In this document: piece by piece, positions 988 through 37,759 of the stretch
How the letters are laid out: every line of letters begins with the position of its first letter
Numbering within the stretch: the stretch's first letter is position 1
From: an uncultured Holdemania sp.
Lineage (GTDB): Bacteria; Bacillota_I; Bacilli_A; Erysipelotrichales; Erysipelotrichaceae
Direction of reading: 5' to 3'
DNA: 37,759 nucleotides
Assembly: GCA_947037125.1 (NCBI GenBank)
Contig: CAMQTJ010000016.1
Span: 1-37,759 of the forward strand
Translations under genes and position numbers: made by a program
The notes under the pieces: generated by a model
The model's input: the letters and a program-made list of their open reading frames with translations, nothing else
Told to the model about the DNA's origin: nothing
Databases searched by the model: none

Positions 988-2082
988 TTAGCTATCCTCC
1001 TTTTTTTTACTTGATAAATGATTCCAATAATAGTATAAGCAGCAAATAGCAATCGTCATAATAACCAATAATAATCTAATTAAATTAATATTGTTTCTGA
1101 TGTTTAAATAAAATAAAGAAGTTTTTTTCATAATTATTTCTTCAGGAGTTGTTATATTTACTATTTCACCATCAATATTAATGTAAGAATCTGTATTCTC
1201 TAACTCAAATTCTAAATCTATATCCAATGACAAAATATCATTCAGCCTAATTCTTAAAATTGCGTCTTTACTTTCAACCTTATTAGTAACTACAAGTCTT
1301 CCATTATTTGAAACAAACATTTTGTCATCATCTGATATTAATTGAAAGCTTACAGGTTGAATGTTTCCTGTTACCTGGTATTTAACTATATTTTCACCAA
1401 CTTTAGGTACATTAATTGAATTCTGTCCAACTACAGCAATATCATTGGCCTCAAAAAACATTTTTGTTTGGTCGTGAGTGTAGGCCGAAAGGCTATCGAA
1501 TTTGATCTTTTGTTCTAATCCATATTTTGTTTCGAGTGAAATTCCTAATGAAATTATATTTTCAAGATTTTTCATATATTCATCTGTTTTATCATTAGAA
1601 AGACTTGTGAATGGGACTAATAATTTACCACTAAAATTTTTAGGTATCACTATGTAATTGTCTTGTATTTTATTTGCTATATACTTATTTTGACTTTCAA
1701 ATATAACAATTGAATCGTCTTTACAGCTTACAGCTTCTCCTGCACTATTTTGCAAGTGGAGTTTCAATTTTATTTCTTCTTCACTATAATTAACAATATT
1801 TAGTTCAATGCCATCATATTTAGCTAAGTTTTTTTTCATATTTTGATGCAAATAAACAAATGCATTTTTTTCAAATGCTTCTATGCTGTATGTAGAATCT
1901 GACCCATCATTTTCTATATTTATATTTGTATTATTTTCAGTAATATCAAAATCTGTTTCGATTGGATGATTGATATTTTTTGCAACAACACTATCAACTA
2001 AATAAAAGTTTAAAAGAAAAAACCACACAAAACATAAAAATAATAATGTTATAGTCTCACTATAATTAATTCTTTTCTTCAT
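988..2082 (-). CDS. Membrane-anchored extracytoplasmic protein of the exopolysaccharide cluster (BcsB-like role possible)
   Basis: A 364-residue protein with an N-terminal hydrophobic segment (about residues 12-34), a long Asn/Ser/Asp-rich, beta-rich-looking region (about 35-325), a second hydrophobic segment (about 333-352) and a short basic tail. This topology puts most of it outside the cell, tethered at both ends. I recognise no catalytic motif. Its start overlaps the synthase stop by one base (2082), and its end abuts the acyltransferase start, so it is one translational unit with both. By position it could play the role of BcsB, the extracytoplasmic partner of bacterial cellulose synthases, but it is about half the usual BcsB length and I see no sequence signature proving this. 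Divergent Clostridia-type cellulose-like clusters carry comparable accessory proteins. The role is an inference from context. Confidence 0.7.
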   Translation of the reverse strand: MKKRINYSETITLLFLCFVWFFLLNFYLVDSVVAKNINHPIETDFDITENNTNINIENDGSDSTYSIEAFEKNAFVYLHQNMKKNLAKYDGIELNIVNYSEEEIKLKLHLQNSAGEAVSCKDDSIVIFESQNKYIANKIQDNYIVIPKNFSGKLLVPFTSLSNDKTDEYMKNLENIISLGISLETKYGLEQKIKFDSLSAYTHDQTKMFFEANDIAVVGQNSINVPKVGENIVKYQVTGNIQPVSFQLISDDDKMFVSNNGRLVVTNKVESKDAILRIRLNDILSLDIDLEFELENTDSYINIDGEIVNITTPEEIIMKKTSLFYLNIRNNINLIRLLLVIMTIAICCLYYYWNHLSSKKKEDS

Positions 2083-4394
2083 TATACGTACTCCATAATA
2101 TCAAATTCTTTAATTTCAGTTTCATCTTTTGTAATATCAATTGATGGTTTGCTTACTTTATTTTCATTAATCCACTGTATTATTGCAATTTTATTTTCTA
2201 CATTTTTTAAAAATTCCTCAATATTTGTTAATTTATATAATTCTACTTCATGACTTTTAACTATATTTGCTTTTTGCGCTTTTAATATAATTATATCATT
2301 AATTTTAATTTCAATATTTTCATTATATTGGCAATTAATTTTTTTGTTTACAGACAAGAATTGATAATTAAAATCAACCAAGTTAATTTTATTACCATGT
2401 CCATCTTCACAGTCATAATTAATATTAATACGTGGAGTAGTTCTTGAAAAATAAGTCGTTTTCTTCATTCTATATTGGATATTAACTTCTAAGTCTTCAT
2501 AAAAACCAAACGACCCTTCAATAGTTTCAGGATGTGTTGGATTTCTATCATGAACAATCAAATACCATGAATCAAGCATATTATCTTTTATTTCATCAAT
2601 TTCACAGGCATATTTCCACTTATTATCTAGTTCTATAACTTGCACTATTTTTGCTGTAAATTCACTACTATAACTACCATTTTCAAACACCATATTTATT
2701 TTAGTGAAAAATGGAATATCAGGATTAATATAAATTGGATTTTCTAAAATAAATGAAAAGCCTTTTTCCGATATATCATCAGTTTTACATTTTAAATTTA
2801 AACTATCTTGAGATATATTCATATCTAGATTTGCTTTAAACCGTTCAAATCTTCTTAACTGTTTTCTGCTTAATAGGAAAAATAAAGCCATCAATAAATT
2901 AAATAAATTACCAATTAACCAAAATAAAGCTACAAGGTATTCAATACTTTCAGTTGAAATTATTTGCCACAAAGTATTAATAATTCCTATAAAAGATAAA
3001 GAAGCAAAAATAATAAATGGTAAGGACAGCCATAAACGATATTTACTATCATCTTGTTGATTCCTAGTTTTTTTTGTGACAGAAAACTTATTTTTTGAAA
3101 TACAAAATGTTTCTAATATAACACATAACATTAAAGGCGGAAATAATATAGTTTCATAAATATTTGTCCATCTCGTATTTCTTATATTTCCTGAAAACTT
3201 TTTAAGACAGTAACCTGTTAGTACATATGATGGTAGCCATAATATAATAATTTCTATAAAGCTACACTCCAAGATTTGAATACCAAAAACAGCATAAAGA
3301 ATAGGACATAAAATATAAATAAAACGCTTAATACTACCATACCAATATGTAACAGAGGCAAAATAGCTCAATTTTTGACCTATACTAAGACCTTTTAGAA
3401 ATAATAAATTAACTCTTCTAGCCGTTTGTATGCATCCTCTTGACCAACGCTCCCTTTGCTTAATAAGACTTCTCATATCATCAGGGGACAGACCTGATGC
3501 ATGAATATCTTTTAATGCATAACAAGTATATTTCTTACTTTGAATTAACATTCCCGTAGCAAAATCTTCTGTGATAGAGTTTGTGTAAAATCCGCCTACT
3601 TCTTCTAATGCCTCGCGCGAAATAACAGTATTACTACCGCCGTATATTACAGTGTTATTAGCATTTCTTGCACTTTGTATATCTCTATAAAAATAATCTT
3701 GTTCATTAGGAATTCGATTTTCAGAGTACAAATTATATTGAAATAAATCCGTATTGTAAAAACTTTGAGGTGTTTGCACAAATCCTATTTTCGGATTAAT
3801 TTCTTTTATTCCATTTTTTTTACATTGTTCATTTTTCAAAAAATATGGTACTGTAGCAAGTAAAAAATCATGCATAGGAATCATATCAGCATCTAATGTT
3901 GCAATAAGTGGAGAACTCGAATATTTCATAGCATTATTCAAATTACCAGCTTTTGCACCCTCATTATCTTCTCTTGTGATATAATTTATTCCATATTTTT
4001 CTGCTAAAACTTTCATTTCACTTCGATTCCCATCATCACATAAAAAGATATTTACTTTTTCTTTATCAGGATAGTGAAGATGTATACAGGCATTAATAGT
4101 TTTTCTAACCAACTCTAATGGTTCATTATAAGTTGCAATAAAAATATCAACTGCAGGAAACAATTCTTTATCAATTTCTGGTACTTTCGGCACTTCTTGC
4201 TTAACTAACCCAAAAAAGTTAACGAATAACTCTATTAAACCAACTATTTCTACAATTAGTAAAGCCATTGCGAAAAATAAAGATATAAAACCTTTACCTT
4301 TTGGTATTGTAAAAAATATTCTCCACACTATATAAACTATATTAACTATTATTGTTGCAATTAGTAGAATTTTTTTTGAATCGAATTTTTTCAT
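2082..4394 (-). CDS. Cellulose-synthase-like processive glycosyltransferase (GT2) with C-terminal PilZ region
   Basis: A 770-residue membrane protein. Two membrane segments (about 8-30 and 36-64) precede a GT2 domain with all processive-synthase motifs: DDG (120-122), DAD (168-170), FVQTPQ (205-210), TED (275-277) and QRERW (313-317). Further membrane segments lie at about 340-375, 378-398, 415-432, 455-478 and 484-508. A PilZ domain follows, with RKQLR (510-514) and DISEKG (540-545), matching the RxxxR and [D/N]xSxxG c-di-GMP contacts known from BcsA. A further beta-rich region (about 611-750) begins with another RxxxR (RTTPR) but has no DxSxxG. The sugar donor is probably UDP-glucose, as in cellulose synthases, but this is not provable from motifs. 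It lies downstream of the AbrB-type regulator (50-bp gap). Product: an extracellular beta-glucan-like polymer controlled by c-di-GMP. Confidence 0.92.
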   Translation of the reverse strand: MKKFDSKKILLIATIIVNIVYIVWRIFFTIPKGKGFISLFFAMALLIVEIVGLIELFVNFFGLVKQEVPKVPEIDKELFPAVDIFIATYNEPLELVRKTINACIHLHYPDKEKVNIFLCDDGNRSEMKVLAEKYGINYITREDNEGAKAGNLNNAMKYSSSPLIATLDADMIPMHDFLLATVPYFLKNEQCKKNGIKEINPKIGFVQTPQSFYNTDLFQYNLYSENRIPNEQDYFYRDIQSARNANNTVIYGGSNTVISREALEEVGGFYTNSITEDFATGMLIQSKKYTCYALKDIHASGLSPDDMRSLIKQRERWSRGCIQTARRVNLLFLKGLSIGQKLSYFASVTYWYGSIKRFIYILCPILYAVFGIQILECSFIEIIILWLPSYVLTGYCLKKFSGNIRNTRWTNIYETILFPPLMLCVILETFCISKNKFSVTKKTRNQQDDSKYRLWLSLPFIIFASLSFIGIINTLWQIISTESIEYLVALFWLIGNLFNLLMALFFLLSRKQLRRFERFKANLDMNISQDSLNLKCKTDDISEKGFSFILENPIYINPDIPFFTKINMVFENGSYSSEFTAKIVQVIELDNKWKYACEIDEIKDNMLDSWYLIVHDRNPTHPETIEGSFGFYEDLEVNIQYRMKKTTYFSRTTPRININYDCEDGHGNKINLVDFNYQFLSVNKKINCQYNENIEIKINDIIILKAQKANIVKSHEVELYKLTNIEEFLKNVENKIAIIQWINENKVSKPSIDITKDETEIKEFDIMEYV

Positions 4395-35933: not shown

Positions 35934-35964
35934 TTGACATAATAGTTTGGAAAAGGCATTATAT
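35934..35964 (+). promoter_or_regulatory. Possible promoter of the sigma/anti-sigma operon
   Basis: A perfect TTGACA (35934-35939) is followed after 18 to 19 bases by ATTATA or TTATAT (35958-35964). The spacing is slightly long. The leader would be about 85 bases. Confidence 0.4.
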
Positions 35965-36053: not shown

Positions 36054-36629
36054 ATGAGTCTACTAAGTATATTAAAAAAGAATGAAAATGTTGATAGTAA
36101 GCTATTAGATGCTTATCTTTTTAATATCGCAAATAATGATAAATTATCATTGGAAAATCTTTATACCGATACACAGCATGCAGTATTTGGTTTTGCTTTT
36201 TCAATATTAAAAAATATGGATGATGCTCAAGACGTTTTGCATGATACATATATTAAAATTTATTCATCTGCGCCTTCGTATAAATCACAAGGTAAACCAA
36301 TGGCTTGGATTCTTACAATAACAAGAAATTTTTGTTTAATGAAAATAAGACAAAAAAATAAAGTTATTGATGTTTGTTTTGAAGATTTAGAAAAATCGTA
36401 CACAATCAATGAAAACATTAAAGTTGAAGATAAAATTGTACTGAACACATGTCTAAAACAGTTGAGTGAAATAGAATACCAAATAATAACATTGCATGCA
36501 ATATCAGGTCTTAAACATCGTGAAATTGCGAAATTATTATCTATTCCATTATCAACTGTCCTTTCAAAATATAATCGAGCATTAAAAAAATTAAAAGTTT
36601 TATTAATAAAGGAGAATTTTTATGAATAA
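36054..36629 (+). CDS. ECF-type RNA polymerase sigma factor
   Basis: 191 residues. Region 2 (about 35-105) has the -10-binding pattern FAFSILKNMDDAQDVLHDTYIKIY and AWILTITRNFCLMKIR. Region 4 (about 130-185) has a clear helix-turn-helix (GLKHREIAKLLSIPLSTVLSKYNRALKKLK, quoted in part as LKHREIAKLL and PLSTVLSKYNRALKKL). There is no sigma-70 region 1 or 3, so it is a minimal group IV factor. AGAGGAAAAG precedes the ATG. Its last eight bases overlap the start of the anti-sigma gene (ATGAATAA), the usual arrangement for stoichiometric synthesis. It is probably an envelope-stress or surface-signal responsive factor, kept inactive at the membrane by the next gene product. Confidence 0.9.
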   Translation: MSLLSILKKNENVDSKLLDAYLFNIANNDKLSLENLYTDTQHAVFGFAFSILKNMDDAQDVLHDTYIKIYSSAPSYKSQGKPMAWILTITRNFCLMKIRQKNKVIDVCFEDLEKSYTINENIKVEDKIVLNTCLKQLSEIEYQIITLHAISGLKHREIAKLLSIPLSTVLSKYNRALKKLKVLLIKENFYE

Positions 36630-37759
36630 TAAATCTAGCGAAAAACAAATACGTGATGCTTATATAAATGCTACACCAAATATTCTTAATTCTATTCTCA
36701 AAGATTGTGATAAACAAGAGTATATTAGCCAACAAAAATATGTTGATATAGAAAGTGAAAATATAAAAATGAAAAAATATAATAAAAATAGTAACAAAGT
36801 TATCGGTTTAGCATTATCTTTTGGTGCATTTGTTGCATTAATGTTCGGATTTAATACTTATTCAACTAATTATTCAGTTGCGTCTGTTGTGTCATTTGAC
36901 GTTAACCCTAGTATTGAAATATCAGTTAATTCTAAAGATAGAATTTTAGATGTAACAGCATTGAATGAAGATGCTATGATTGTTATTTCAGATATGGATT
37001 TAAAAAATACAGATATTGATGTAGCAGTAAATGCAATTATTGGTTCTATGCTTAAAAATGGCTACATTGATGCAAGTGCAAATTCAATCTTGATTTCTGT
37101 TGAAAATGATGATGCAATAAAAGGTAGTGAATTACAAACTAAATTAACTAATGAAGTAGTACAAATATTAAATACTGATGCATTTAGTGGTTCTGTATTA
37201 AGTCAAACAGTTTCGTCAAATGAAAGTTTGCAAGCATTAGCAAATACTCATAATATTAGCTTAGGAAAAGCTCAACTTATTCAACAAATTGCAGCACAAA
37301 ATTCTTTATATAAAGTTGAAGATTTAGCCAAATTATCTATCAATGAACTTAATTTATTAACGGATTCTAATAGTGTTAATTTAGATAACACAGATAAAAT
37401 TGGTTCTGCAAGTTCTTCATCTTATATTGGAAATGAAAAAGCAATAAGTATAGCTTATAGTCATGCAAATATTACTTCAACACAGGTATTAAATAGTAAA
37501 ATTAATCTAGATATGGAAAACGGTGCTATGGTTTATGAAGTTAAATTTAGCACAAAATCTGATGAATTTGATTATGAAATTGATGCAACAACAGGTAATG
37601 TAATAGATTTTGAAAAAGAAATAAATGATAGTGATGAACAAGAGATTTGTGAAGATTGTGGACAACTTGAAAGTATTTGTAATGATAGTTGCGATATAGA
37701 CGAGGATGCCCAAGAGATTTGTGATGATTGTGGACAACTTGAAAGTATTTGTAATGATA
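36622..37759 (+). CDS. RsgI/PepSY-type membrane anti-sigma protein with Cys-rich repeat tail (partial)
   Basis: The frame is open from ATG 36622 (AAGGAG upstream) to the window end: 379 residues, C-terminus missing. A short cytoplasmic domain (1-58) includes AYINATPNILNSILKDC, a pattern seen in anti-sigma proteins paired with ECF factors. One membrane helix follows (about 60-78). The outer part has the RsgI-like block SVVSFDVNPSIEISVN and ILDVTALNEDA (about 88-118), a helical middle, and a PepSY-like domain (about 272-333, YEVKFSTKSDEFDYEIDATTG). It then enters an acidic, Cys-rich tandem repeat (CEDCGQLESIC, then CDDCGQLESIC). The role, sequestering the sigma factor and sensing an outside signal, is inferred from operon structure and topology. 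Confidence 0.85.
   Translation, partial: MNNKSSEKQIRDAYINATPNILNSILKDCDKQEYISQQKYVDIESENIKMKKYNKNSNKVIGLALSFGAFVALMFGFNTYSTNYSVASVVSFDVNPSIEISVNSKDRILDVTALNEDAMIVISDMDLKNTDIDVAVNAIIGSMLKNGYIDASANSILISVENDDAIKGSELQTKLTNEVVQILNTDAFSGSVLSQTVSSNESLQALANTHNISLGKAQLIQQIAAQNSLYKVEDLAKLSINELNLLTDSNSVNLDNTDKIGSASSSSYIGNEKAISIAYSHANITSTQVLNSKINLDMENGAMVYEVKFSTKSDEFDYEIDATTGNVIDFEKEINDSDEQEICEDCGQLESICNDSCDIDEDAQEICDDCGQLESICND
37639..37759 (+). repeat. 72-bp tandem repeat coding for a Cys-rich motif
   Basis: The 49 bases from 37639 recur from 37711 with one mismatch; the period is 72 bases (24 codons). Each unit encodes CxxCGQLESIC with acidic flanks. The second copy is cut by the window edge, so the true copy number is not visible. 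Confidence 0.85.

Follow-up and report, generated by a model that had tools for sequence, protein, structure and literature searches.

An ECF sigma factor gene and the gene for its putative anti-sigma factor lie at the end of the window, the 37,759-base stretch of DNA analyzed here, which is a complete contig (C16) of an uncultured Holdemania sp. genome (2.49 Mb, 95.7% complete). We give about an even chance to the reading in which this pair is an ECF switch with a self-cleaving anti-sigma factor whose C-terminal end, a PepSY domain followed by two cysteine repeats, is a candidate module facing metals or thiols. The scaffold of this switch is already known, and the Cys tail is a species-level variant of it. 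RsgI-type anti-sigma factors are mainly known as sensors of polysaccharides or of the envelope, and among open-licence papers we found no description of an RsgI protein with a Cys-rich tail.

The sigma/anti-sigma gene pair

The sigma factor (36054..36629, + strand, 191 aa) scores above the Pfam cut-offs for Sigma70_r2 (E 2.5e-13) and Sigma70_r4_2 (E 1.3e-11), and these are its only Sigma70 regions, which places it in the ECF class. Its gene overlaps by 8 bases the anti-sigma gene, which starts at 36622 and is still open at the end of the window (36622..37759, + strand). Another contig of the same genome, C17, opens with the exact 55 bases that close the window (C17:1-55 versus 37705-37759), and joining the two at this overlap (L002) completes the anti-sigma factor to 394 aa. 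C16 and C17 are both exactly 37759 bases long and share these 55 bases inside the Cys repeat; their equal sizes would fit a 75,463-base contig that was cut in the middle so that both parts kept the same 55 bases. Upstream of the operon, a sigma-70-type promoter-like site (35934..35962, + strand; TTGACA, 17 nt, CATTAT) scored 10/12 in a consensus scan; it is a weak candidate, since the scan returned 11 sites in the region against 8.7 expected. Downstream of the operon, C17 carries a small toxin-antitoxin-like pair on the reverse strand (580-1147), which by eye is RelE/ParE-like and RelB/DinJ-like.

The architecture of the anti-sigma factor was analyzed with Pfam profiles and with an AlphaFold2 model, built from 12 sequences on the protein of a second record of the operon (L015; CAMRBO010000066.1, labeled uncultured Mycoplasma sp.), with a mean pLDDT of 59. 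A single transmembrane helix is predicted at residues 58-84 of the model (36793..36873, + strand; low pLDDT), preceded by a Lys-rich flank. No other long hydrophobic segment was seen in the protein, and its Lys-rich N terminus is predicted to lie inside. An RsgI_M (SEAL-like) domain occupies residues 88-222 (36883..37287, + strand; PF23750, E 3.8e-28, 99.2 bits against a cut-off of 25.3) and contains a predicted autocleavage site, Asn95-Pro96, within the motif DVNPS (36904..36909, + strand). This site is conserved in all 12 sequences of the alignment and is flanked in the model by strands at 88-93 and 97-102. By a fixed pattern, the NP motif was found in 147 of 155 RsgI_M proteins, and three of the eight misses keep NP with a different next residue. 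A PepSY domain follows at residues 272-329 (37435..37608, + strand; PF03413, E 1.3e-7) and is confidently modeled (pLDDT about 79-91 in most blocks). The top PDB matches of the outer part in Foldseek were Bacillus subtilis RsgI (8t9n, E 4.5e-6) and Clostridium thermocellum RsgI2 (8hdj); the first ten also contained the Clostridium difficile lipoprotein 4exr, and YpeB (5boi, E 0.039) came next. The PF23750 score, the Asn-Pro site, and the SEAL fold together indicate that the anti-sigma factor is probably of the self-cleaving RsgI_M/SEAL type.

The sequence-only reading had proposed an ECF sigma factor with an RsgI/PepSY anti-sigma factor bearing paired cysteines outside the membrane. The ECF, RsgI-like, and PepSY parts of this proposal held, and one helix after a Lys-rich N terminus does predict an outside location for the cysteines. 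Judged by its sequence, the anti-sigma factor is nevertheless not RsgI proper, because it has no match to RsgI_N (PF12791) up to an E value of 1 and its partner is an ECF sigma factor, with no SigI-type sigma beside it; a SigI-type RsgI protein (L167) scores 5.6e-12 with the same profile. It shares with the SEAL-containing RsgI proteins of B. subtilis (8t9n) and C. thermocellum a single-pass topology, the RsgI_M domain, the NP site, and an extracellular C-terminal part; however, this part consists of PepSY and Cys repeats in the window and of carbohydrate-binding modules in C. thermocellum. Redox-responsive ZAS anti-sigma factors of the RsrA type carry a cytoplasmic HxxxCxxC motif. This motif is absent from the window protein, which has only one cysteine (C29) ahead of its transmembrane helix.

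The cysteine repeat tail and its distribution

The tail is built from a 24-residue unit with four cysteines per copy, spaced C-x2-C-x6-C-x3-C, which corresponds to a period of 72 in the DNA. Copy 1 (37633..37704, + strand) reads DEQEICEDCGQLESICNDSCDIDE, and copy 2 (37705..37759, + strand), which begins DAQEICDDCGQLESICNDSCDID, is cut by the contig end and goes on in C17 by way of the overlap. A 49-nt stretch compared between the copies contains one mismatch, so that the repeat stands as the sequence-only reading described it. Tandem Repeats Finder did not list the Cys repeat in the window, probably as a result of the truncation of copy 2. The sequence-only reading also suggested extending the sequence past 37759 and took the repeat to be recent and possibly variable in copy number. 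With C16 and C17 joined, the tail reads CEDCGQLESICNDSCDIDEDAQEICDDCGQLESICNDSCDIDDDSDESDDND and then stops, giving two copies and eight cysteines in 394 aa, with an acidic end (DDDSDESDDND) after the second repeat.

The L015 record differs from the window record at 20 of 3534 ungapped bases, has no indel, and also carries exactly two copies; variation in copy number is thus unsupported. Four of the positions that distinguish copy 1 from copy 2 do so in both records, which argues that the duplication is older than their split and leaves its claimed recency unsupported. A long or expanding array is likewise rejected on the two copies in both records, with the reservation that the two records have the appearance of short-read metagenome assemblies and that the contig breaks inside the repeat, so that hidden, collapsed copies are possible. 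The 180-nt tail holds 6 of the 20 differences between the records (Fisher P value, 3.4e-4), located in linkers and flanks. Five of the six changed bases alter residues and none affects a cysteine; all eight cysteines and both CxxCGQLESICNDSC cores are identical in the two records. The unchanged cysteines are a hint of constraint, which is short of proof because two near-identical records are few. In the L015 model, the tail appears unstructured (pLDDT about 28-40), with no fold predicted. No Pfam metal-binding domain, zinc ribbon or other, scored above its cut-off in the tail (best, 14.9 bits against 24), and a PDB sequence search with the tail gave matches at chance level only.

Some match to the anti-sigma factor was found in 76 of 145 family genomes, the closest relatives having 52, 49, and 46% identity, and in none of three other genomes of the same genus. 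The closest family relatives carry further PepSY-type extensions where the window protein has its Cys tail. The named ECF/RsgI_M/multi-PepSY pairs of Clostridia and Bacilli (L016-L026, L029-L033) have the same genes and domains at about 37-52% identity; they differ in having further PepSY-like domains and acidic linkers and no Cys-rich tail. In L016-L026, PepSY-type extensions stand at the place of the tail. Queries with the tail against 314 other genomes of the order and 394 others sampled from the class gave no convincing match, and a scan of viral contigs found no relative. Outside its own genome, the tail returned only weak rows (E 0.0056-0.042), all of which were rejected. The matched frames in G059 and G203 carry stop codons; by eye, the G276 match (L062) resembles an aldo/keto reductase and has ferredoxin-like Cys motifs, and the G674 match (L232) is a Fur/rubrerythrin-like frame. 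Among the genomes searched, the Cys tail is therefore confined to one species at the level of detectable sequence similarity. The repeats end after two copies, and no conservation of the tail is seen outside the species, an outcome that the sequence-only reading had itself named as counting against its proposal of a surface sensor.

This narrow distribution bears on a somewhat unlikely alternative, in which the tail would be a low-complexity extension that arose recently in this lineage and does little or nothing. Its restriction to one species, its disorder in the model, and its fast-changing linkers would fit such an extension, as would the low-complexity acidic ends that are common among relatives. 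Most relatives, however, have no cysteine at all after the RsgI_M domain; the identical Cys cores in both records also speak against an idle tail, two near-identical records being thin evidence of selection.

The acidic composition of the tail bears on a second alternative, that of a flexible acidic handle that would anchor the outer half to wall or host material or cross-link a surface protein, with the cysteines serving structure or attachment and with mechanical or envelope stress as the signal. RsgI proteins use extracellular modules for substrate sensing, according to PMC12203970; where the window protein has its tail, relatives carry acidic linkers and PepSY domains in several copies, and the second gene upstream of the window's pair encodes a class A penicillin-binding protein. 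The penicillin-binding protein gene is not necessarily connected, however, and counted against a handle of this kind are Cys cores that stay while linkers change and relatives whose acidic linkers lack cysteines. We consider this alternative unlikely.

Cysteine-rich elements in other RsgI_M systems

PF23750 matches were found in 83 of 208 genomes of the order that are at least 90% complete. Together, the loci of this survey, the named relatives, and the family-genome loci gave 155 distinct RsgI_M proteins, leaving out one at a contig edge (G070:C17). The number of cysteines after the RsgI_M domain was 0 in 119 proteins, 1 in 23, 2 in 4, and 3 in 3; 4, 5, 6, 8, 14, and 36 cysteines were found in one protein each. 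The protein with eight is that of L015, which also represents the window. The protein with 36 (L154/L166; G250:C59:6380-7552) is lipoprotein-like, contains DnaJ-like CxxCxGxG-type motifs, has no sigma gene seen adjoining, and has no full-length relative in the 69 further genomes of that genus. The protein with 14 (L037) is a SigI-type RsgI. L037 and L167 resemble the window protein in being RsgI_M anti-sigma factors whose extracellular tail consists of Cys-rich tandem repeats; in contrast, their repeat is a 17-residue C-x9-C-x6 unit, RsgI_N is present, and the partner is SigI-type. The protein with five (L160/L168; G107:C3) is lipoprotein-like, has a Cys/His tail, and is the second RsgI_M protein of its locus. 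At this locus, genes for a SigI-type sigma factor, an RsgI_M protein, the Cys/His-tailed RsgI_M protein, and a ZIP zinc transporter (PF02535, E 4.4e-36) follow one another on one strand. The tails of L154, L037, and L160 are unlike one another by eye, so Cys-rich ends on RsgI_M proteins seem to have arisen several times. As a separate observation, SigI-type loci often have two tandem RsgI_M genes, the second without a directly preceding sigma gene (for example, L117, L118, L123, L127, L128, and L131).

A further extracellular Cys-rich element was found beside ECF-type RsgI_M proteins of the short type, defined as having fewer than 60 aa after the domain (n = 27). Upstream genes were scored for an open reading frame of 60-210 aa with a hydrophobic N terminus, no second hydrophobic stretch, at least 3 Cys, and at least 6% Cys plus His. 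Such a gene precedes the sigma gene in 24 of the 27 short operons, which by genome labels cover 16 genera and include several near-duplicates. Of the three misses, L080 and L126 have secreted proteins with Asp/Cys repeats that stay below the criterion, and L120 has none. Of the long ECF-type loci, 36 had the 1200 or more upstream bases needed for scoring, and the count among them was 0 of 36. The sequence available upstream of another 26 was too short to score, as it was for 67 of the 155 proteins overall. In the other groups, the criterion was matched at 0 of 5 long SigI loci, 2 of 17 long loci without a sigma gene, and 2 of 3 short loci without one (L050 and L054). The background was 3 matches per 175,038 strand-bases, one of them the window genome's own case. 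Because the criterion was set after the pattern was seen, the contrast between groups outweighs the absolute rate. Across the phylum, 54 of 344 sampled genomes had a match; among the 30 loci read from them, seven had the secreted gene, all of them short members of the window's order. Among open-licence papers, we found no description of a secreted Cys/His protein encoded in an ECF/RsgI_M operon.

The small secreted proteins contain YVDENGDGICDNC-like and CDVCGSTQHYNAEC motifs and often end in His; Pfam searches with four of them gave nothing above cut-off. The window genome has a second ECF/RsgI_M pair of this short type (L170; G000:C23, about 1249-2776, reverse strand), and the gene before it encodes a secreted protein in which HNFIDTDSDGYCDND is repeated. 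The window anti-sigma factor is of the long type, and no gene for a secreted Cys/His protein lies beside its operon. Its operon is like the 27 short ones in linking an ECF/RsgI_M pair to an extracellular Cys-rich element; in the short operons, however, this element is a separate secreted protein, and PepSY is lacking. The tail shares with the secreted proteins the style of CxxCGQ and of acidic Asp runs before ICDxC. In a profile test of the tail against the secreted Cys/Asp motif, the window gave P values of 0.013 and 0.020 and L015 gave 0.14 and 0.17, and for this reason we propose an analogy between the two sequence patterns rather than homology.

A candidate mechanism and its implications

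The favored reading, an ECF switch with a metal- or thiol-facing candidate module, can be set out as follows. By gene order and family, the cytoplasmic N terminus of the anti-sigma factor would hold the ECF sigma factor, and one helix would span the membrane. The outer SEAL-type RsgI_M domain, given its motif and fold, would cleave itself at Asn95-Pro96 with the halves staying together, as known for RsgI. Pulling off or destabilizing the outer half would let an intramembrane protease, followed by ClpXP, release the sigma factor; in RsgI, the autocleavage, RseP, and ClpXP steps are described in PMC12203970. The C-terminal PepSY domain and the two CX2CX6CX3C modules in their acidic chain would form the ligand-facing end, in which the Cys modules may bind a soft metal (such as Zn or Cu) or undergo thiol-disulfide exchange, either of which would load or brace the outer half.

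We favor this reading because of the domains and gene order, the fold match to 8t9n and 8hdj, the invariant N95-P96, and Cys cores that are unchanged while linkers differ between records. Extracellular cysteines are otherwise rare in the family and yet unrelated Cys-rich tails recur, and the upstream secreted Cys/His/Asp-rich gene divides short operons from long ones; these tails and secreted proteins give the redox- or metal-sensing idea circumstantial support. Counted against it are the lack of a Pfam metal domain, the chance-level PDB matches, the unfolded tail in the model, its presence in one species, and the fact that the window and its long-type relatives are without a secreted Cys/His gene.

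If the tail were specifically a redox sensor, its surface thiols would form disulfides on exposure to oxygen and thereby alter the cohesion of the outer half. The cysteines suit this role in being eight, an even number, with half of them in CxxC pairs and a predicted location outside. However, a search of the window genome for two thiol oxidases found no VKOR, and its single DSBA match lies on a contig (L233; G000:C108) with DsbA-like and outer-membrane-protein-like genes by eye that looks like a Gram-negative contaminant in the bin; the match was set aside for that reason. This result leans slightly away from disulfides. Related operons, moreover, combine Cys with His and Asp, which are better suited to cations. 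A redox sensor is improbable, and for the tail modules of the favored switch, metal binding appears somewhat likelier than disulfide sensing. A precedent for an ECF system with its own metal-sensing extension is OrbS, an iron-starvation ECF sigma factor with an on-board iron sensor, as reported in PMC9023288; unlike in OrbS, where the sensor sits on the sigma factor, the candidate module of the window is at the outer end of the anti-sigma factor.

More broadly, and as a tentative proposal that we regard as rather doubtful, the order may have a lineage of cation- (or thiol-) responsive self-cleaving anti-sigma switches whose ligand receptor is an extracellular module rich in Cys, His, and Asp, either secreted separately from just upstream of the sigma gene (short operons) or fused to RsgI_M as a tail (window, L037, and L160), with metal binding controlling whether the outer SEAL half comes off. 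If outer modules of this kind, whether fused or secreted, do make some RsgI-type anti-sigma factors sensors of metals or thiols, an uncharacterized family of switches would gain a testable input, and the small secreted Cys/His/Asp-rich proteins would gain a role.
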